From Flavobacteriaceae bacterium (GTDB lineage Bacteria > Bacteroidota > Bacteroidia > Flavobacteriales > Flavobacteriaceae): a stretch of 64,000 nucleotides of DNA. The translations under genes and the position numbers were made by a program. The stretch lies in contig JABDMU010000046.1 of the NCBI GenBank assembly GCA_013001285.1, forward strand, positions 1 through 64,000, written 5' to 3'. This document shows, piece after piece, positions 7,356 through 30,247 of this stretch (the stretch's first letter is position 1; the number at the start of each line of letters is the position of its first letter). The notes under the pieces are model-generated. The model was not told the origin of the DNA, did not search any database, and saw only the letters and a list, made by a program, of their open reading frames with translations.

Positions 7356-8318
7356 CTATTTATATTCTTTTGTTATTGTATCGCTTTCAATAGGTAATTC
7401 TTTATGATAACTCCATTCTACCCACGACCCATCATAATTTTTTACGCGTTTAAATCCTAATAATTCTGTCAATACGAAGGTTGTGTGTGAAGATCGTACA
7501 CCAGAATGACAATAAACTATGATGTCCTTGTCCTGTGTTATTTGATGCCGAGCATATAAATCATACAGTTCTTGAAAGGACTTGAATTTTTTAGAGCCAT
7601 GATAATCAATTGTATTTGCCCAATCAACCATGATACTTTTAGGAATATGCCCTGCTCGACTAGCGCCAGATTTTTGACGCAGTCCAGTAAATTCGTCTGT
7701 GGCTCTTGTATCTAGCACTACGCTGCTATTATTAGTTACTACCGATTTCAATTCGTTTAATCCAATGTAAAGTTTAATGTTTAACTCATCAGGCAATGTA
7801 AAATGAGAGGGTTGATATACCTGTGTTTCTTTAGAAAGCTTTCCCTTCATCTCAATCCAATGATCTAGACCGCCATTCAGCAGTTTGACATTTTCAAATC
7901 CATAATTTTTCAGTATCCACCACAATCTTGAGGCGTCACAAGCTCCATTATTATCATAAATTATCAAGTGGTCTTTGTTCTCAATCCCCAGTTTACTAAA
8001 TAAAAGTTCTATTTGAGCCTTGGTGGCCATGATCCCTTGATAAGGGTAGTCATTATTTTCAATATCTGTACGCCAAATGTTAATTGCATTTGGAATATGC
8101 CCAGAATTAAAATCATCCGGTTTTCTCAAATCTATGATTTTATGATCTATAGAAGTTGAAAAATTCTTGAGTTCTTCAACTTCAATAAGATGTTCTGTAC
8201 TGTAGTATGCTTTTGTCGCTTCGGATACGAATGGGGTATCCTCACCCCATTTTTTTTCTTCTCCATTACAAGCGAAAAAGAGTACTGCAATACATCCTAT
8301 TTTAATTCTCCAATTCAT
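7356..8318 (-). CDS. Two-domain rhodanese-type sulfurtransferase, lipoprotein
   Basis: Transfers sulfane sulfur, for example from thiosulfate or 3-mercaptopyruvate, to a thiophilic acceptor. Two rhodanese domains: an N-terminal one (about 35-160, GHIPNAIN, NGGLDHW) whose catalytic position is degenerate, and a C-terminal one (about 185-310) with catalytic Cys270 in YCHSGVRSS. The leader ends in LFFAC, so Cys17 is probably lipidated and the enzyme works outside the cytoplasm. ATG 8318 overlaps the end of the cytochrome gene by 17 bases. Placement with a sulfite oxidase suggests it feeds or drains the same sulfur pool: thiosulfate sulfurtransferases release sulfite. Confidence 0.88.
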   Translation of the reverse strand: MNWRIKIGCIAVLFFACNGEEKKWGEDTPFVSEATKAYYSTEHLIEVEELKNFSTSIDHKIIDLRKPDDFNSGHIPNAINIWRTDIENNDYPYQGIMATKAQIELLFSKLGIENKDHLIIYDNNGACDASRLWWILKNYGFENVKLLNGGLDHWIEMKGKLSKETQVYQPSHFTLPDELNIKLYIGLNELKSVVTNNSSVVLDTRATDEFTGLRQKSGASRAGHIPKSIMVDWANTIDYHGSKKFKSFQELYDLYARHQITQDKDIIVYCHSGVRSSHTTFVLTELLGFKRVKNYDGSWVEWSYHKELPIESDTITKEYK

Positions 8319-8766
8319 ACCATTCTATATCTGTTAATATGGCGCGCCTGCCTGTGTTTTCTGGTGCATAATTTTTTGCTAAATAGCTAACGACAATGTC
8401 TTCATTTGCGCCAAGATCCCATAGCTTTTGGGTGTCTTGCATCCATCTAATTATGCTGATCCAACCTTCTTTTGTTGCTCGATTTTGAGTAACTAATTTT
8501 GCCGAATGACAAGGTGTGCATTGCGAAATGACCACCTGCAATCCATCATCATCCTTAAATCCTGTAGCCAAATGAATACCATTTTCAATTCTATTTGGAT
8601 CTATGTCAACATACGCATTACTATTGGTTTTAGGTGATGGGATTAGCACTGATGGATTTACACTTATATAAACCAAACCTGCAGACAACAGCAACAGTAA
8701 TCCGAAAAACACAGATAAAGCGTAATAAATACGCATCACTTTTTTTCTGAATTTTTGTTGCTCCAT
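8302..8766 (-). CDS. Membrane-anchored monoheme cytochrome c (SorB-like)
   Basis: 154 residues starting at ATG 8766, which shares a base with the stop of the molybdoenzyme gene (TAATG on the minus strand); a longer frame upstream lies inside that gene and is not the start. One membrane helix at about residues 14-34 anchors it, with a single heme site C83-T-P-C86-H87; Met in RWMQDTQ is a candidate axial ligand. In sulfite dehydrogenases of the SorAB type a small cytochrome c takes electrons from the molybdenum subunit; the order and coupling here fit that role. Confidence 0.88.
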   Translation of the reverse strand: MEQQKFRKKVMRIYYALSVFFGLLLLLSAGLVYISVNPSVLIPSPKTNSNAYVDIDPNRIENGIHLATGFKDDDGLQVVISQCTPCHSAKLVTQNRATKEGWISIIRWMQDTQKLWDLGANEDIVVSYLAKNYAPENTGRRAILTDIEWYELEN

Positions 8767-9986
8767 TAACTTACTTTTATTGCAATGCGATGACAGGCAT
8801 TGTTTAAATATCCTTTTGGGTTCCAACCTGGAACGAGCATGGGTTGACTGCGTCCATTTGTATCTGTTGCGCGAGCCCAAACTTCATAATATCCTGTTTT
8901 AGGAAAATTAACATCAGCTTGAAAATGTTGCCAGGCAAAGCGGTTTGCTGGTTTTTCAAGCTTACATGACTGCCATGTGACTCCAAAATCAATAGAATAT
9001 TCCATCTTAATGACTTCTAACTCCCCTGCCCATGCATGTCCGTTTATTTTTAAAGTGTTCCCCTTTTTTATAATAGCGCCACTTTTTGGAAAGGTGATCA
9101 ATGATTTTACAGGCATACTTTCAATGATGCACATATCTTCATCTTTTACTTGCGTTCCTGGTGCTACTGGATCGCATGGCACACGATACGAAGGTGATTC
9201 CATTTTAGGTCCATCATGTACCTTATTTCTAACACTTAAACGATTGATCCATTTTCCTGATGCTGAAGCGGGATAACCACCAGCAACAAGTCGTAATGGG
9301 AATCCGTGTGCTCTCGGGATATCTTTTCCGTTCATTTTAAAAGCAATCAAAGTTTCATCTTGCATAGCCTTTTTCATTGGAATTCCTCTTGAGATGACTT
9401 CCTTTTCTGGGTCTTGACTGAGATGCAGATCTATGGCATGATAGCCTACGTAAACGGCATTTGATTTAATACCAACGTCGTTTAAAACATCTTTCAGTCT
9501 AACACCTGTCCATTCGGCACTGGAAACGGCCCCAACCGTCCACTGATTGCCTTTAGCGGGCGGGTTGAATTCGCTTCTTCCATTACCGCCACATTCAAGG
9601 GTAAGTTGGTAAGTATATTGTTTGAATTTTGATTTTAATTCTTGAATGTTAAAAGACGTTGCATTTTTAACAGACTCACCATCGATAGTCAATTTCCACT
9701 GCCTAGCATCAAGTATTTCTGGAATAAGGCCATTATTTCTAATGAACATATATTTATTGGGCGTTATATTGTCGTTTAATAAATGCGCTTGTGCTTCAAT
9801 ATTCCAGGGCTTATCATTAAGAATTTGCATGTCCTTGTCCTTATTAAAAAGGGCAAAAGGATCAGTTTCTTGAAATGCAATTGGGATGTAGTTATCGGGC
9901 AAGTTTGAAGAAAATACAATATCCAAACCTAGGCAGGTAGCTGATGTACCGAGAAGGGTGTTTTTAATGAATTTTCGTCTTTCCAT
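8766..9986 (-). CDS. Sulfite oxidase family molybdopterin enzyme (SorA/SoxC-like)
   Basis: Catalytic subunit expected to oxidise sulfite to sulfate in the periplasm. It begins with MERRKFIKN, a twin-arginine type leader, which fits export of a folded molybdoenzyme. The oxidoreductase molybdopterin domain covers about 85-270 with the likely Mo-ligating Cys132 in LECGGNGR; HGFPLRLVAGGYP is the second conserved block. A Mo-cofactor oxidoreductase dimerisation domain follows (about 290-400, AWAGELEVIKMEYS, YEVWARATD). 406 residues. First gene of a coupled operon with cytochrome c, sulfurtransferase and lipid hydroxylase; the E1 gene lies 86 bases upstream on the same strand, so read-through is possible. 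Confidence 0.9.
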   Translation of the reverse strand: MERRKFIKNTLLGTSATCLGLDIVFSSNLPDNYIPIAFQETDPFALFNKDKDMQILNDKPWNIEAQAHLLNDNITPNKYMFIRNNGLIPEILDARQWKLTIDGESVKNATSFNIQELKSKFKQYTYQLTLECGGNGRSEFNPPAKGNQWTVGAVSSAEWTGVRLKDVLNDVGIKSNAVYVGYHAIDLHLSQDPEKEVISRGIPMKKAMQDETLIAFKMNGKDIPRAHGFPLRLVAGGYPASASGKWINRLSVRNKVHDGPKMESPSYRVPCDPVAPGTQVKDEDMCIIESMPVKSLITFPKSGAIIKKGNTLKINGHAWAGELEVIKMEYSIDFGVTWQSCKLEKPANRFAWQHFQADVNFPKTGYYEVWARATDTNGRSQPMLVPGWNPKGYLNNACHRIAIKVS

Positions 9987-21114: not shown

Positions 21115-21115
21115 T
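20973..21115. repeat. 143-bp segment bounded by perfect 13-bp inverted repeats
   Basis: AAGCCTTAAAGCA at 20973-20985 is the exact reverse complement of TGCTTTAAGGCTT at 21103-21115. Inside it, GATTTTTG (20996) and CAAAAATC (21029) form a second inverted pair. The right end touches the stop codon of the metallopeptidase gene. No target-site duplication is obvious. Confidence 0.6.
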
Positions 21116-22275
21116 TATTTTAAGCTTTTTAAGATAAAATCTAAGTTCGTGTTCGAGTTATTATTGGTAAGAAAAGAATCTGTGAAAAATTTTGAGGTGT
21201 TAGCCAAACCAAGCTTCTGCATTTTTTTAACCACATCAACATATTCAATCGCCATTTTGCCTGTAAGTAAAATATCGAGATCGCCGCCCTTTTGAGCATA
21301 AGAGTAAATGGTTCTTAATCCTGACAGATACAAATGATCCTTTGTAAATCCACCACCACGATGAACACGTTGTGTTATGGCATAGGCCTTATCTCGATTT
21401 AATTTATATTGATTGAATAATTGATCAAACGTTGCGCTAAACGAATAGCCTTTCGCAAGACTGTCGACAGCGATCACACGATACGCCAATTCCTGTAAAC
21501 GGGTTAAGGTCAGACATCCCGACATATATTCTGAATAAACAGCCACCCCTTCTTGAGTTTCAACATTATTTGGAATGCCATTGGAAAAAATCTTTAAAGG
21601 CTGATCTAAGGCGTTAAAGGAGGTTACCATATGAACACCAATCTCATGATTGGTAAGTACTTTTAATTGATTCTTGCTAAATTTATGATTCTTTCTTAGC
21701 ACCAAGGTTTGTGTATTATTTCGAACCATTGCAGCCGCCGCAATATTATTTGAAAAAATCATTTTATAGTCAAAATCATATCGCTTAGAATAGTCCTCGA
21801 AATAAGCTTTAGCATCGTTGACGTCATACAAAGGAAGCATGTCCTCATCAAACTCTGAATCATCAAATCTTAATATAAACTTGGCGTTCTCAATATCTTT
21901 CTCAGTTGGTGTTCCAAAGCTCTTTAAGCTATTGTAATAGAATTTTTTCCCTTTACCAATGGTTTCAATACATTCAATTAAGCTTGAATGGTCGTATATG
22001 ATATCTTCATAAAGTTGACGAATATCTTCATCTTGAATGCGTTCTAGGCGCTGTGAAAAGAATAAGCGATGTAATTTATAGCCGTTAAACTTAATTTTTG
22101 GGTATCTAAAATTGGGCTCGTAATTGTATTTAGACGAATAGAACTGCTTTTTTTCTTGTTCAATATTTAGTGGATTCACATAGTTCAGCAATTCAATTTT
22201 CTGCACCAACCTGTTTAAATTAGCATCAATATCGAATAGATCTCGATGCTTTGCTATAATGTCTTCTTTAATCAT
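21115..22275 (-). CDS. QEGLA-motif zinc metallopeptidase-like protein (DUF1704)
   Basis: 386 residues of the flavohemoglobin-expression-modulating QEGLA family, related to eukaryotic MATCAP carboxypeptidases. The metal motif is N-H210-E211-x3-H215 (NHEIGVH), and E242 lies in ETQEGVAVYSE; note QEGVA in place of QEGLA. The N-terminal 170 residues are helical with no known domain. No signal peptide, so cytoplasmic. Its ATG shares one base with the stop of the amidohydrolase gene (TAATG), making it the last gene of the ATP-grasp cluster. Substrate unknown. Confidence 0.9.
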   Translation of the reverse strand: MIKEDIIAKHRDLFDIDANLNRLVQKIELLNYVNPLNIEQEKKQFYSSKYNYEPNFRYPKIKFNGYKLHRLFFSQRLERIQDEDIRQLYEDIIYDHSSLIECIETIGKGKKFYYNSLKSFGTPTEKDIENAKFILRFDDSEFDEDMLPLYDVNDAKAYFEDYSKRYDFDYKMIFSNNIAAAAMVRNNTQTLVLRKNHKFSKNQLKVLTNHEIGVHMVTSFNALDQPLKIFSNGIPNNVETQEGVAVYSEYMSGCLTLTRLQELAYRVIAVDSLAKGYSFSATFDQLFNQYKLNRDKAYAITQRVHRGGGFTKDHLYLSGLRTIYSYAQKGGDLDILLTGKMAIEYVDVVKKMQKLGLANTSKFFTDSFLTNNNSNTNLDFILKSLK

Positions 22276-23105
22276 TAAGTACTATGTGTTTTGTAAAAAT
22301 TTGAAGCATGAGCTTTTAATCTCACTTTTAATTCTTGTTCAACTGCAGCCACCACTTCTGGATAAATTGTTCTCGTATGTTCATCACAATAAACCTTTGC
22401 AATTTCTGTTGCCAAAACTAAGGTATTTTTAAAGTTATTTGTAATGAATTTCAAGAAATATCCATTACCGTAAAATGTATTGTTAATAAGACTTGTCGAT
22501 TTAATATTATTTGGCAGTTTTATTTCTGAAAGCGATTGTCGCCAAAGTTCAATATCATTACCGAAACGTTCATTATCAACATTGCTTGTTCCTAGATTCC
22601 AAGTTGGAACTTCTCTATCCCAACGCTTCCAATTGTAACTGTGCATGTCATATACAATACAACTATTAAATTTGCTTTCGATCTTCTGAATTAACGCATG
22701 AACGACCTTATAAAAATTACTATGTTTTTCAAAACTTCTTGATTTCATAGATTCAGGTAAAGGTGTTTTCCATAATTGCTTTCCCCAGGCTGTTTCAAAA
22801 ACGGCTTCTTCTGGAGGTCTGTTAAGATCATATTCAAAGCGAGAATCACAACCTGCAATGACTATTGGATGTGAAGCGATCATGTTTTTTGTTTCCGGAT
22901 CTTCTTCATACCAGCGATCATATCCCGAATGCAAACAATTGTCCCATAATTCTTTCCTAAATTGATGTCCATCATGCACGGCGCCGCATACATATGGCAC
23001 ATAGGAGTCTATTTTAAGGGTAAATGAATAATCGGATGCAACGGCATGAAAAGTCTTTTCTGCTTCAATGTTAGCGATAATTGAATCTACCGAAAGCTTG
23101 ATCAT
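22275..23105 (-). CDS. N-formylglutamate amidohydrolase family protein
   Basis: 276 residues. Conserved blocks of the family: VCGAVHDGHQF near the N-terminus, CDSRFEYDLNR in the middle and IVYDMHSYNWKRW, containing candidate metal-binding His and Asp residues. Family members hydrolyse N-formylglutamate or related amide bonds with a metal. No histidine-degradation (hut) genes accompany it, so the classical role is unlikely; it is wedged between a small helical protein and the metallopeptidase, with zero-gap junctions. Confidence 0.87.
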   Translation of the reverse strand: MIKLSVDSIIANIEAEKTFHAVASDYSFTLKIDSYVPYVCGAVHDGHQFRKELWDNCLHSGYDRWYEEDPETKNMIASHPIVIAGCDSRFEYDLNRPPEEAVFETAWGKQLWKTPLPESMKSRSFEKHSNFYKVVHALIQKIESKFNSCIVYDMHSYNWKRWDREVPTWNLGTSNVDNERFGNDIELWRQSLSEIKLPNNIKSTSLINNTFYGNGYFLKFITNNFKNTLVLATEIAKVYCDEHTRTIYPEVVAAVEQELKVRLKAHASNFYKTHST

Positions 23106-23435
23106 TTAACTTAGAACTTTAGTTAAATACATAAACATATTTTGCTCTAAATTATCATACTCTCCATCTGAATAAAACAAAACCTTGATGTCAATAAACA
23201 AACTTTCAAGGTCTTCTTTCGAATAATCGTGGCGCTCTAAAGCTTCTTGAATTTTTTTAATGCTTTGATAATCATTGTCATTATCAAATTCCTCATGGAT
23301 CTCAGAAAACGTTTGCATGTCTACTTTAGAAATAATGACATTACGTTCTTCATTAGACTCTTTAAAATTTGAGTTGGCTGCAAATAATAAAATATAGGCG
23401 ATCAGCTCTTCTCTAGACCAAATCGAATCTTCCAT
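23106..23435 (-). CDS. Small acidic helical protein, possibly TerB-like
   Basis: 109 residues, strongly acidic and predicted all-helical, with LLFAANSNFKESNEERNVI at the start and IDIKVLFYSDGEYDNLEQN near the end. Two acidic segments after helices recall the TerB fold, but the similarity is only by eye. No signal or membrane segment. Its stop abuts the amidohydrolase start and it begins 2 bases after the ATP-grasp stop, so it is a full member of the cluster. Confidence 0.8.
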   Translation of the reverse strand: MEDSIWSREELIAYILLFAANSNFKESNEERNVIISKVDMQTFSEIHEEFDNDNDYQSIKKIQEALERHDYSKEDLESLFIDIKVLFYSDGEYDNLEQNMFMYLTKVLS

Positions 23436-23437
23436 AG

Positions 23438-24475
23438 TTATGCTTCTTCTACAGTTTTACGAAGTTTTACTCTGCGATCGAAGGCTTGGAGCTTATCTTG
23501 AACCTTGCTTTCTACAAAATCGATCACTTTTTCTTCCACCTTAACTTTAGGTTTATACACCTTATTTATATAAGTAATACCACCAGGTGACATGACATTT
23601 ACTTCTACCAATTTCCCACCAATCACATCAATACCAACAAAATATAGCCCATCATTTACTAATTTTGGTCCTATTTGTTTACATAATGCTTTCTCTTCCT
23701 TAGTCAATACGTGACGCTGCACACTCCCGCCAGCAGATACATTTGACCTATGGTCATTAGTTCCGGGAACGCGCTTCATAGCACCAACCGGCTCACCATT
23801 TAACAATAAAATACGAACGTCTCCTTGGTCGGCACCTTCAATATAATCTTGAAGAATGACATAATTTGAACTACCATCTGGATTAGTAATATAAAAGTCG
23901 AGTAACGAATTAATATTGCCCATTGCCGATTTCTCTATAAGAATAACACCAGAACCCCCAAAACCATTAAGCGGTTTAAGAATCATTTTATCTGATTTTG
24001 ATTCTCTAATTTGTTCCACCAGATATTCTTTGTTTTTTGATACATGTGTTAATGGAATAATATTGCTATGATTATCACCAAAAGCTGCGGTATATAATTT
24101 ATTATTCGCTTCTCTCATTCCTCGTAAGGAATTAACGATGAAAACATCATCTTTTACAGAATCTAGAAAATTCAACATGATAGGATCAAGCGGAGGATTT
24201 GCTCTAAAGAAAACAACATCAAAGCCCGCCAAAGGTAACATCTCTTCTCTTAAAACAGCTTTGTTATAAAAAGCTTTTAAAGTTTTAGGTATCTTATCCA
24301 TACGCGTAACAACTGTAACAAAAGCACAGGTCACGCTGTCTCTAATTGTTAGGTTTGAAGGCGAACACATAGCCACACCGTGACCGCGTTTCACACATTC
24401 TTTAATTAATGCTAAACTTGTATCATTTTCAGCATCGATCTGTTCCCAAGGATACATGATAAAGCAAATATTCAT
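23438..24475 (-). CDS. ATP-grasp ligase, glutathione-synthetase-like
   Basis: 345 residues with the layout of prokaryotic glutathione synthetase: a pre-ATP-grasp half (about 1-130, FRANPPLDPIMLNFL) and an ATP-grasp half with LKPLNGFGGSGVILI (nucleotide loop), VILQDYIEGADQGDVRILL, KRVPGTNDHRSNVSAGGS and the metal-binding FVGIDVIGGKLVEVNVMSP. It would join a carboxylate to an amine with ATP. The presence of bshA in the window, and no gshA, argues against simple glutathione synthesis. First gene of the four-gene cluster, 36 bases after the symporter stop. Confidence 0.88.
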   Translation of the reverse strand: MNICFIMYPWEQIDAENDTSLALIKECVKRGHGVAMCSPSNLTIRDSVTCAFVTVVTRMDKIPKTLKAFYNKAVLREEMLPLAGFDVVFFRANPPLDPIMLNFLDSVKDDVFIVNSLRGMREANNKLYTAAFGDNHSNIIPLTHVSKNKEYLVEQIRESKSDKMILKPLNGFGGSGVILIEKSAMGNINSLLDFYITNPDGSSNYVILQDYIEGADQGDVRILLLNGEPVGAMKRVPGTNDHRSNVSAGGSVQRHVLTKEEKALCKQIGPKLVNDGLYFVGIDVIGGKLVEVNVMSPGGITYINKVYKPKVKVEEKVIDFVESKVQDKLQAFDRRVKLRKTVEEA

Positions 24476-24511: not shown

Positions 24512-25837
24512 TTATTTTACTTCTTCGTAGTGGTCGTCCCAGTTTTTAATTTTTGGCTCACCAAGTTTACCTACTGATTTTGCAACCAGCATAGAAACTG
24601 TTGCGTCTCCAGTCACGTTTACAACTGTTCTACACATATCTAATGGTCTATCTACTGCAAAGATCAATGCTAACCCAATTGGAAGCAGATCTGAAGGTAA
24701 TCCAACCGATTCTAAAACAATAACCAGCATGACCATTCCAGCTCCCGGAACTGCCGCGCTACCAATAGAGGCCAGAAGTGCAGTTAAAACAATGGTCAAT
24801 TGATCACCTATTGTGAGATCCAATCCTAATGCCTGAAAGATAAACACAGCAGCAACAGCTTGATATAAGCTAGTACCATCCATATTAATGGTCGCACCAA
24901 CCGGTAAAACAAAACTTGACACCTCTTTATCTACTCCAATATGTTCTTCCACACGCTCCATGGTCACCGGCAAGGTTGCCGCACTACTACTCGTAGAAAA
25001 TGCCAATAATTGTGCTGGGCTTATTTCCTTTAAAAACCAAAACGGATTCTTCCTAACTATAGTTCCAACAAAGGTTGAGTAAACTACGATCATTAAGGCA
25101 AGTCCTAGCAATACTACGCCTGCATATTGAACCAATGCCATCAAAATATCTGGATCATCTGATGAAACGACAACACTTGCTAGTAATGCAAATACTGCAT
25201 ATGGCGCTGATAACATGATCAAATCCACCATTTTTAAAACGACATCGTTTAAGGAATCAAATAAATCTTTTAAAGGTTTAGCCCTTTTTTCACCAATTAG
25301 CAACATGGATATCCCTAAAAATATGGCAAAAAAGATCACCTGAAGCATCAGTTTGTTATTGCTCAATGCTTGAAAAGCATTATCTGGCACCATATCTTCT
25401 AAAAATTGAAGTGGTCCACTATCCTTCTGCCTACTTGCTTCAGCAATTTTGTCCTGAACACTGCTATCTGAAGCATAGGTTGTCGTTAATTTTGAAATGG
25501 TTTCTTCCGAAACACCACCACCAGGCTCGAATATATTCACAAGCACTAAGCCAATAGTTATGGCAATCACTGTTGTAATGATATAAATGACAATTGTCCG
25601 CAATCCAATATCTCTAAATTTCGAAATATCCTTCAAATCTGAAATCCCTTTGATCAATGATGCCAGAATCAGTGGAATGGCAATTAGCTTCAAAAGCTTC
25701 ACAAATATAGACCCAAGTGGTTTTATCCAATCTGAAACAAAATCCTTTCCACCGTCAACAGAAAGCATAATGAACCCAAATACCAATCCGAGTAACATCC
25801 CAATTAATATTTGCCAGTGTAACGCTATTTTTTTCAT
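24512..25837 (-). CDS. Dicarboxylate/amino acid:cation symporter (DAACS, GltP/GltT-like)
   Basis: 441-residue inner-membrane importer of glutamate, aspartate or C4-dicarboxylates driven by Na+ or H+. Family signatures are present: the serine-rich re-entrant loop LLAFSTSSSAATLP at about 275 and the cation-site motif GATINMDGTSLY at about 310-322; CRTVVNVTGDA closes the substrate site. The start lies two bases after the aroC stop, so the two are co-transcribed, although no metabolic link is obvious. The ATP-grasp gene follows 36 bases later. Confidence 0.93.
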   Translation of the reverse strand: MKKIALHWQILIGMLLGLVFGFIMLSVDGGKDFVSDWIKPLGSIFVKLLKLIAIPLILASLIKGISDLKDISKFRDIGLRTIVIYIITTVIAITIGLVLVNIFEPGGGVSEETISKLTTTYASDSSVQDKIAEASRQKDSGPLQFLEDMVPDNAFQALSNNKLMLQVIFFAIFLGISMLLIGEKRAKPLKDLFDSLNDVVLKMVDLIMLSAPYAVFALLASVVVSSDDPDILMALVQYAGVVLLGLALMIVVYSTFVGTIVRKNPFWFLKEISPAQLLAFSTSSSAATLPVTMERVEEHIGVDKEVSSFVLPVGATINMDGTSLYQAVAAVFIFQALGLDLTIGDQLTIVLTALLASIGSAAVPGAGMVMLVIVLESVGLPSDLLPIGLALIFAVDRPLDMCRTVVNVTGDATVSMLVAKSVGKLGEPKIKNWDDHYEEVK

Positions 25838-25839
25838 AT

Positions 25840-26904
25840 CTAAAGTTTAGAGATTTTTTGTAATAATAAGTGATCGGCAATTACAAGAGCAGCCATTGCT
25901 TCAACAATGGGCACTGCTCGAGGTACCACACAAGGGTCATGACGTCCTTTCCCTTGCATTTCTACTTGATCACCGTCCTTATCGATCGTATTTTGTTTCT
26001 GCATGATGGTAGCCACGGGTTTGAAAGCCACCTTAAAATAAATATCCATACCATTACTGATACCACCTTGAATACCTCCGGAATTATTTGATCGTGTCGT
26101 TCCATCTGAGTTAAAGATGTCATTATGAGCACTGCCTTTCATTTTGGTACCTTCAAATCCACTACCATATTCGAACCCTTTAACGGCATTTATTGATAAC
26201 ATGGCTTTGGCTAAATCAGCATGTAACTTATCAAAAACAGGTTCGCCAAGTCCTACAGGAACATTTTTAATGACGCAAGAAACGGTTCCACCTATGGTAT
26301 CGCCTTCCTTTCTCACTGCTTTTATTTTAGAGATCATGGCTTCAGCCATATCTTTATCCGGGCATCTCACCGCATTGTCTTCGACTTCTGAAAGGTCTAA
26401 TTCTTGATATGTTTTCTTAAGTTCTAATGCGCCAACCGAAGACGTATATGCCTGTATAGTAATGGAATTAATAAGTTGTTTTGCTAAGGCTCCTGCCACC
26501 ACACGACAGGCCGTTTCACGAGCTGAACTCCTTCCACCGCCTCGATAATCACGAGTGCCATACTTTTTCTCGTAGGTGAAATCGGCGTGACTTGGTCTAA
26601 AGACATCTTTTATATGACTATAATCCTTAGATTTCTGATTGGCATTTTCTATTGTAAATCCGATTGGTGTTCCGGTAGATCGCCCTTCAAATAGTCCTGA
26701 AAGGAAGTTCACTACGTCGGGTTCTTTACGTTGTGTAACAATTTCGGATTGTCCAGGTTTTCTTCGGTTCAGTTCAGATTGGATCGCATTTAGATCGATT
26801 TCTAAACCCGCAGGGCAACCTTCAATAATGCCTCCAATGGCTGGCCCATGAGACTCACCAAAAGTGGTTAATTTAAATAATTTTCCGAAGGAATTTCCTG
26901 CCAT
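25840..26904 (-). CDS. aroC: Chorismate synthase
   Basis: Last step of the shikimate pathway: EPSP to chorismate, using reduced FMN. 354 residues, normal length. Signatures: [18 protein letters not shown] near the N-terminus, the [14 protein letters not shown] and [15 protein letters not shown] blocks, and [14 protein letters not shown] plus [17 protein letters not shown] 26904. Followed immediately by the symporter gene. Confidence 0.97.
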
Positions 26905-29110: not shown

Positions 29111-30247
29111 TTAAATGGAGATACATTTTTCCATGGCGCTTTCGTAGATCGCTTCGTAAAGTGGTACTATTTTTTTGATATCGAAATTTAAGGATTCTGC
29201 CTTGGCATTAGATTTAAATGTCTTCAATATGTCATCATTCTTAAGAATATGTAAAGCGTTTTTGGTCATGTCAGCAATGTCACCAACATCACTTAATAAA
29301 CCTGAAACCCCATGAATATTCACTTCCGGAATACCACCTGTATTACTTGAAATAACTGGCACACCACAAGACATGGCCTCCAAAGCTGCTAGTCCAAAAC
29401 TCTCTGTTTCAGAAGGCAGTAAAAAGAGATCAGTAAAGCATAGGATCTTGTCAATTTCATTACTGTTTCCGAAGAAAATCACTTTATCGGCAATCCCTAA
29501 TTTTTCACATAGCATTTCGGCTGGTTCTTTTTCCGGGCCTTCGCCAACCATCATCAATTTGGCAGGGATTTCTTTTTGAATGTTATTAAATATATGAATG
29601 ATATCGGTTATTCGTTTTACCGGTCTGAAATTACTGATATGAGTTATGATTCGTTCATTTTCATCAGCCATGATATCTCTTTGACAATCAGTAAATTCAT
29701 GATCACCTCTCTTCAATTCAATAAAATTAGGAACCACTTGGATCTCATTCGTAATATTGAACAAGCGCAGGGTATCATCCTTTAAACTTTGAGAGACTGA
29801 AGTCACGGCATCCGATTTATTGATACTAAATGCCACTGCCGATTTATAATGTGGATGACTCCCAACTAAGGTGATATCTGTTCCATGGAGCGTTGTCACT
29901 ATTGGAAGTATGATCCCTTCTTCATGAAGCATTTTTTTCGCCATATATGCTGCATAGGCATGAGGAATTGCATAATGCACATGTAAAAGGTCAATTTGAT
30001 GCAACTTAACCATATCAACTAATTTACTTGATAGGGCTAATTCATAAGGTTGATAATGAAATAAAGGGTATTCCGGCACACTTACTTCATGAAAATGAAC
30101 GTTAGCGTTTAACAAATCTAAACGAACAGGCTGACTGTAGGTGATAAAATGCACGCTATGCCCATGTTTAGAGAGTTCTACCCCTAATTCTGTGGCTACA
30201 ACACCACTACCTCCAAAAGTTGGATAACAAACAATTCCTATATTCAT
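29111..30247 (-). CDS. bshA: BshA, N-acetyl-glucosaminyl L-malate synthase (bacillithiol)
   Basis: GT4-type glycosyltransferase that joins UDP-GlcNAc and L-malate in the first step of bacillithiol synthesis. The N-terminus IGIVCYPTFGGSGVVATELG is characteristic of BshA; VHYAIPHAYAAYMA, TTLHGTDITLVGSH and the C-terminal ETESFGLAALEAMSCG (nucleotide-sugar E-x7-E region) agree. 378 residues. Starts one base after the GH3 gene stop. It implies bacillithiol is the low-molecular-weight thiol here; bshB and bshC are not in the window. Confidence 0.95.
   Translation of the reverse strand: MNIGIVCYPTFGGSGVVATELGVELSKHGHSVHFITYSQPVRLDLLNANVHFHEVSVPEYPLFHYQPYELALSSKLVDMVKLHQIDLLHVHYAIPHAYAAYMAKKMLHEEGIILPIVTTLHGTDITLVGSHPHYKSAVAFSINKSDAVTSVSQSLKDDTLRLFNITNEIQVVPNFIELKRGDHEFTDCQRDIMADENERIITHISNFRPVKRITDIIHIFNNIQKEIPAKLMMVGEGPEKEPAEMLCEKLGIADKVIFFGNSNEIDKILCFTDLFLLPSETESFGLAALEAMSCGVPVISSNTGGIPEVNIHGVSGLLSDVGDIADMTKNALHILKNDDILKTFKSNAKAESLNFDIKKIVPLYEAIYESAMEKCISI

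Follow-up and report, generated by a model that had tools for sequence, protein, structure and literature searches.

An ATP-grasp ligase, an FGase-fold hydrolase and a MATCAP peptidase form a conserved three-gene unit in Bacteroidota, possibly for reversible amino-acid ligation

Introduction

What does a bacterium do with an ATP-grasp ligase that is encoded directly beside two hydrolases? This question is raised by a cluster at positions 21115-24475 of a 64,000-nt stretch of Flavobacteriaceae DNA (contig JABDMU010000046.1; hereafter, the window), whose four open reading frames (ORFs), all on the minus strand, encode an ATP-grasp ligase, a small protein, a hydrolase with the fold of N-formylglutamate amidohydrolases (FGase) and a HExxxH metallopeptidase of the MATCAP family, which takes its name from a microtubule enzyme. 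A sequence-only reading of the window had proposed that the cluster makes and undoes an amide-linked modification, with the small protein as carrier or substrate. Here, we find that making and undoing provides the best reading, the ligase, FGase and MATCAP being one conserved unit, while the role given to the small protein falls away.

Two lines of published work bear on this question. The human MATCAPs TMCP1/2 strip tyrosine, alanine and glutamate from C-termini, and they cut glutamate chains back while leaving the branch-point residue in place (PMC10499314); for bacterial members of the family, no assigned chemistry was found in the searched literature. In turn, RimB strips from RpsF the glutamates that the ligase RimK puts on it, hybrid RimB-RimK enzymes exist (PMC11957791), and relatives of RimB are required for hypo-osmotic tolerance in Pseudomonas aeruginosa (PMC12239564). 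In the open literature that was searched, no description of the ligase, FGase and MATCAP as a set was found; a 2009 survey of amidoligases by Iyer and colleagues, which lay outside that search, may list the neighbourhood.

A three-gene unit

The functional unit consists of three genes, encoding the GshB/RimK-type ATP-grasp ligase, the FGase-fold hydrolase and the MATCAP peptidase (hereafter, the trio). In a set of 60 genomes, made up of the source genome and 59 relatives, in which the ligase was counted above 330 bits (plus one copy at a contig edge), the 20 genomes with the PRK12458-type ligase are exactly the 20 with MATCAP. Across a phylum-wide sample of 393 genomes drawn from Bacteroidota, MATCAP has a sporadic, accessory distribution, being present in 23, and 21 of these 23 genes adjoin the ligase together with an FGase or an AstE/AspA-type hydrolase. 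Among 80 named loci, nearly all from Flavobacteriaceae, the trio is complete at 72, only MATCAP is present at seven and a contig edge truncates the remaining one. Beyond this phylum, the gene order on rhizobial plasmids is FGase-MATCAP-ligase, and in Photobacterium the ligase adjoins an FGase-MATCAP fusion protein. Chance falls far short of explaining a linkage that is kept in Bacteroidota, Photobacterium and rhizobia alike, and the comparison of neighbourhoods across Bacteroidota that the sequence-only reading had suggested thus extends it well past the source species.

The ligase and MATCAP trees show the same split into a type I and a type II, with Photobacterium falling in type I and the rhizobia in type II. 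Pairwise identities of the two proteins correlate strongly (r = 0.92 over 435 pairs), a value that, taken alone, is compatible with shared species history as well as with joint inheritance of the trio; more weight falls on the split that the two trees have in common in distant hosts. Two hybrid operons (L097, L196) hold a type I ligase, an FGase, a type II MATCAP and a type II ligase together.

The two hydrolases

The MATCAP of the window matches PF08014 with 319.5 bits (cut-off 27), and a MATCAP profile matches human KIAA0895L (7z5g, E 4.9e-17). The metal-site residues H210, E211, H215 and E242, found at the positions the earlier reading had given them, constitute the HExxxH motif and a downstream glutamate ligand that are intact in 93 of 94 homologues. 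The lone exception is a solitary type I copy in Salinimicrobium catena (L033/L181), which carries H215N and E242A and is probably inactive judging from these replacements; the same genome holds a separate type II system. Loss of the active site as a rule for solitary MATCAPs was considered and rejected, since the other solitary copies are intact and only that of Salinimicrobium catena is changed. A further solitary and divergent MATCAP was seen in one genome (G241, L094, 6931-8205), with HEAYVH and with GR instead of GK; separate retropepsin-like, RimK-like and AstE/AspA-like ORFs lie adjacent to one another in the same genome (L218).

The second hydrolase scores 44.5 bits against PF05013 (cut-off 28.9) and lies far below the HutG equivalog TIGR02017 (18.6 against 278.75 bits). 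Its AF2 model (pLDDT 89.6) finds as its best Foldseek match the N-formylglutamate amidohydrolase 2q7s (E 1.6e-10, TM 0.68), followed, after other FGases, by a weak match to an M14 metallo-carboxypeptidase (4b6z, E 8.5e-3, TM 0.44). H44, D153, H155 and E234, together with a DLNR motif, are conserved in 87-88 of 88 sequences. At one locus of Patiriisocius marinistellae (L148, 7149-7981), a frame break, either a sequencing error or decay, splits the FGase into two ORFs.

The two hydrolases are closely associated with each other, being fused into single proteins at three loci (L039, L040, L096) as well as in Photobacterium. Type II MATCAPs, of about 607-691 aa, carry an N-terminal part that is a degenerate FGase-like domain without the metal-motif region (hhalign against FGase: probability 96.6%, E 5.5e-10). 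Type II loci have a further hydrolase gene in addition, which is either an FGase placed ahead of MATCAP or an AstE/AspA (PF24827) on the far side of the ligase, the two never occurring together; at one of these loci (L091) neither lies nearby. Treating AstE as a sequence relative of FGase was tried and rejected, as the profile comparison gave 0.3%, and the swap between the two is therefore called non-orthologous. Besides, a plasmid of Vibrio sp. HDW18 (L188, 5122-7113) encodes an FGase-MATCAP fusion that has no adjacent ligase and in which the FGase part carries H155Y.

The small protein and the locus

The 109-aa protein is a passenger from a rhodanese-small-protein pair and stands outside the trio. 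Only 18 of the 80 named loci have it. At five (L124, L125, L168, L178, L179) it forms a single protein with a double rhodanese, and it has stayed at the site with the rhodanese in two genomes that have lost the trio (G005, L084; G023, L085), one of which (G005) retains a 69-aa ligase remnant. This distribution, together with the fusions, rules out the carrier or substrate role. The rhodanese itself is in the operon at 23 of the 80 loci and occurs without the trio as well. In the source locus, which has no rhodanese, the small protein alone remains, and the nearest rhodanese in the window is a different gene.

Profile searches with the small protein returned no family match. Its AF2 model is all-helical (pLDDT 86.5), and the nearest fold, 2h5n, is a weak match (TM 0.62, probability 0.98, E 0.48); TerB (PF05099) matched one of 14 members, weakly (E 0.0089). 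At the aroC-SDF site, the small protein pairs or fuses with a double-rhodanese sulfurtransferase, and paralogues of it are encoded elsewhere in four genomes (G006, G007, G023, G026). A separate mercaptopyruvate-type sulfurtransferase lies near a sulfite-dehydrogenase-like gene in the window (7356-8318 and 8766-9986).

The ORF coordinates (Table 1) bear out the gene order and the near-absence of spacing in the cluster, with 2 bases between the ligase and the 109-aa protein, 0 bases between the latter and FGase, and a 1-base overlap of FGase and MATCAP. Among the relatives compared, the SDF symporter and aroC occupy the site whether or not the trio is present, and their proximity is shared synteny only. 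A defence system was considered for the cluster and rejected, PADLOC giving no match, as was a phage origin, for which one partial and distant phage match was found.

Table 1. Features of the cluster and its surroundings in the window
Feature	Position	Strand	Basis
ATP-grasp ligase (345 aa), proposed "writer"	23438..24475	-	PF02951, PF02955, NF009110 above cut-off
Small all-helical protein (109 aa), possibly TerB-like, passenger	23106..23435	-	Rhodanese fusion and distribution
FGase-fold hydrolase (276 aa), proposed first-residue (acyl-amino acid) eraser	22275..23105	-	PF05013, Foldseek
MATCAP-family HExxxH metallopeptidase (386 aa), proposed chain-trimming carboxypeptidase	21115..22275	-	PF08014
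SDF-family Na+/dicarboxylate (Glu/Asp type) symporter, upstream neighbour	24512..25837	-	PF00375, 428 bits
aroC, upstream on the same strand	25840-26904	-	
bshA, within the window	29111-30247		TIGR03999, 554.8 bits

The ligase and the glutathione question

The ligase has the two domains of glutathione synthetases, GSH-S_N (PF02951, 85 bits) and GSH-S_ATP (PF02955, 181 bits), and it passes both the "glutathione synthetase" subfamily model NF009110/PRK12458 (457.8 bits, cut-off 408) and the broader NF003573 (281.1, cut-off 272). It falls short of the glutathione synthase equivalog TIGR01380 (232 against 299.05 bits). In the alignment, the trio ligases have RSN and SPGG[IL] where E. coli GshB has RGN and SPTC, with a TPGG[IL] variant at three loci (L189, L190, L192), and these motifs resemble the RSN and SPG of E. 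coli RimK. An apparent fusion of the ligase to another domain (L102, 914 aa) proved spurious, being caused by an overlapping long frame in DNA of high GC content.

A search of the source genome, which is 99.7% complete, found no match to either of the gshA families PF04107 and PF04262; one with PF08886 was silent, as was its control. Among 40 genomes with MATCAP, PF04262 is present in none and PF04107 in 12. Synthesis of glutathione by the trio ligase is thus unlikely on sequence grounds, because two gshA families are absent and the acceptor motifs are RimK-like. The doubt that the sequence-only reading had cast on glutathione, on account of bshA, is supported: bshA is where it had placed it, the gshA search it had called for came back empty for both families, and the linkage extends beyond one species.

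Published data for Photobacterium damselae bear on the same point. At 1% versus 3% NaCl, A0J47_RS17020 ("GshB") was induced 38.4-fold and A0J47_RS17025 (a QEGLA protein) 27.5-fold; the two locus tags are adjacent, and the former, among the top genes induced by low salt, is discussed in that study as a glutathione synthetase (PMC10308900). We take the pair to be trio genes, because they are adjacent, are named accordingly and are arranged as at L191, and A0J47_RS17020 is probably the trio ligase. In Vibrio vulnificus, VV2_1203 (COG3930) and VV2_1204 ("glutathione synthetase") likewise have adjacent tags and are specific to clade 2 (PMC3091676).

Weighing the explanations

The reading that we favour, tentatively, is that the trio is a reversible amino-acid ligation cassette, probably for glutamylation, which functions in the manner of RimK-RimB while using other erasers. 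The chemistry classes of the three families are established, and we infer from them and from their relatives in which direction each reaction runs, that glutamate is the amino acid added and in what order the erasers act. The ATP-grasp ligase would use ATP to activate a carboxylate and join to an acceptor an amino acid that is most likely acidic, glutamate for example; as acceptor, a small metabolite seems somewhat more likely than a protein. MATCAP, as a zinc carboxypeptidase, would cut the attached residues back, starting at the free carboxyl terminus, and the FGase-fold enzyme, or AstE/AspA in some genomes, would cut the first acyl-amino acid amide, which MATCAP would be unable to cleave. 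If erasure takes two enzymes that prefer different bonds, this would account for the near-constant presence of a second, unrelated hydrolase beside the ligase and MATCAP. As a clue to the substrate, the glutamate-chain activity known from the MATCAP family (PMC10499314) appears more useful than tyrosine, and nothing in the analysis points to the tyrosine- or tubulin-like substrate that the earlier reading had evoked.

Several observations weigh against this cassette. Seven of the 80 loci have MATCAP without an adjacent ligase or FGase, and in six of these seven cases the trio ligase is missing from the entire genome, so MATCAP can persist alone. In addition, the FGase is distant from characterised members of its family, as its PF05013 score indicates; the choice of glutamate draws on relatives and not on the trio proteins themselves; and co-induction of a writer and an eraser would be expected from a one-way biosynthetic pathway too. 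The solitary MATCAPs have a further feature, in that seven genomes with an intact solitary MATCAP and no trio ligase (G447-G453; MATCAP loci L160, L164, L165, L169, L170, L177, L205) all have a fused retropepsin-RimK (RimB-RimK) gene of 454-478 aa (L211-L217), which the trio-complete type I genomes of the 60-genome set do not show. This may reflect functional replacement or shared ancestry, four of the seven being Arenibacter, and its link to the solitary MATCAP is uncertain.

A one-way metabolite pathway, in which FGase or AstE, together with MATCAP, makes ready or reshapes a peptide precursor that is N-acylated and the ligase attaches the last amino acid, is a rather unlikely but substantial alternative. 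The pathway would yield a small solute or cofactor of peptide-like nature, linked to the osmotic state, and its layout would be comparable to the metabolism of N-acetylglutaminylglutamine or N-acetylaspartylglutamate. Hydrolases of N-acyl acidic amino acids belong to the FGase and AstE/AspA families that interchange here, no gene for a protein partner is conserved, Photobacterium induces its ligase-type and MATCAP-type genes jointly at low NaCl (PMC10308900), and the accessory distribution (23 of 393 genomes) would suit such a solute. Set against this, the characterised relatives of MATCAP work on protein tails (PMC10499314), a carboxypeptidase adjoining a ligase suggests undoing as much as making, and the unit conserves neither an acyltransferase nor any other synthetic gene. 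That the target is protein only, so that the ligase lengthens one or several cell proteins at the C-terminus or on a side chain and both hydrolases take the extension off again, as RimK and RimB do on S6 (RpsF), we regard as unlikely. The RimK-like RSN and SPG motifs, the protein tails targeted by MATCAP and RimB (PMC10499314, PMC11957791) and the resemblance of the FGase model to M14 carboxypeptidases argue for it; however, that resemblance is a weak one common to the fold at large, the trio has no substrate gene as a constant companion, the small protein has been ruled out in that role, and an accessory distribution sits poorly with a universal substrate. Finally, synthesis or turnover of glutathione or a close analogue, as database names and the Photobacterium study assume, is highly improbable: the GshB-family domains, the PRK12458 score and the operonic rhodanese are outweighed by the lack of the two gshA families in the source genome, the absence of PF04262 and the minority share of PF04107 among the MATCAP genomes, the shortfall against TIGR01380, the replaced RGN and SPTC motifs, the presence of bshA and the occurrence of the rhodanese without the trio.

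Related systems and significance

The closest parallel to the proposed cassette is RimK-RimB of Pseudomonas, an alpha-L-glutamate ligase with a retropepsin-like eraser. Both pair an ATP-grasp ligase with a peptidase, which in the trio is proposed to undo the product; the acceptor motifs are alike; and both may serve in environmental adaptation, RimB relatives (Rlo) being required for hypo-osmotic tolerance. The trio ligase differs in having a GshB-type N-terminal domain, and the erasers belong to two metalloenzyme families (MATCAP and FGase/AstE) instead of being an aspartic protease. As no RimB retropepsin domain is found in the trio, it is not a member of that system and may instead work in a similar way. 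Likewise, E. coli GshB shares the domain layout and the ATP-grasp core, and is set apart by its acceptor-site motifs; the trio ligase, moreover, is paired with MATCAP and an amidohydrolase where two gshA families are absent.

The trio MATCAP shares PF08014, the HExxxH motif and the third metal ligand with the eukaryotic MATCAP/TMCP enzymes (KIAA0895L, KIAA0895), which in turn act beside ATP-grasp ligases, on tubulin, and M14-fold carboxypeptidases, the CCP deglutamylases. Family-level homology is nevertheless limited to MATCAP, given that the trio ligase and FGase/AstE do not belong to the TTL/TTLL and CCP families, and there is no tubulin substrate. Within bacteria, the window MATCAP shares its protein family with the "flavohemoglobin expression-modulating QEGLA motif protein" TIGR02421, a name that denotes an effect on expression and not a chemistry, but its score does not reach the cut-off of that equivalog (297.2 against 338.65 bits). 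The FGase has its fold and its conserved metal-site and DLNR motifs in common with other FGases, and AstE/AspA (AstE or aspartoacylase) substitutes for it at some loci; it differs from HutG and AstE in lying outside any hut or ast operon, and it scores far below the HutG cut-off.

With the conserved three-enzyme unit, work on bacterial MATCAPs has a specific hypothesis and a short list of proteins for assays. The Photobacterium "glutathione synthetase" with its 38-fold induction at low salt is suggested to be part of a trio, and its interpretation through glutathione may need revision. At its widest, in a form that is doubtful as a whole, the proposal is that of a bacterial code of amide modifications, written by a single ligase and erased by two metal-dependent enzymes, which would act on a metabolite or a protein tail during osmotic adaptation and would be related to the source of the eukaryotic tubulin eraser MATCAP. 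The acceptor, if found, could reveal the kind of chemistry from which the eukaryotic erasers of tubulin arose.

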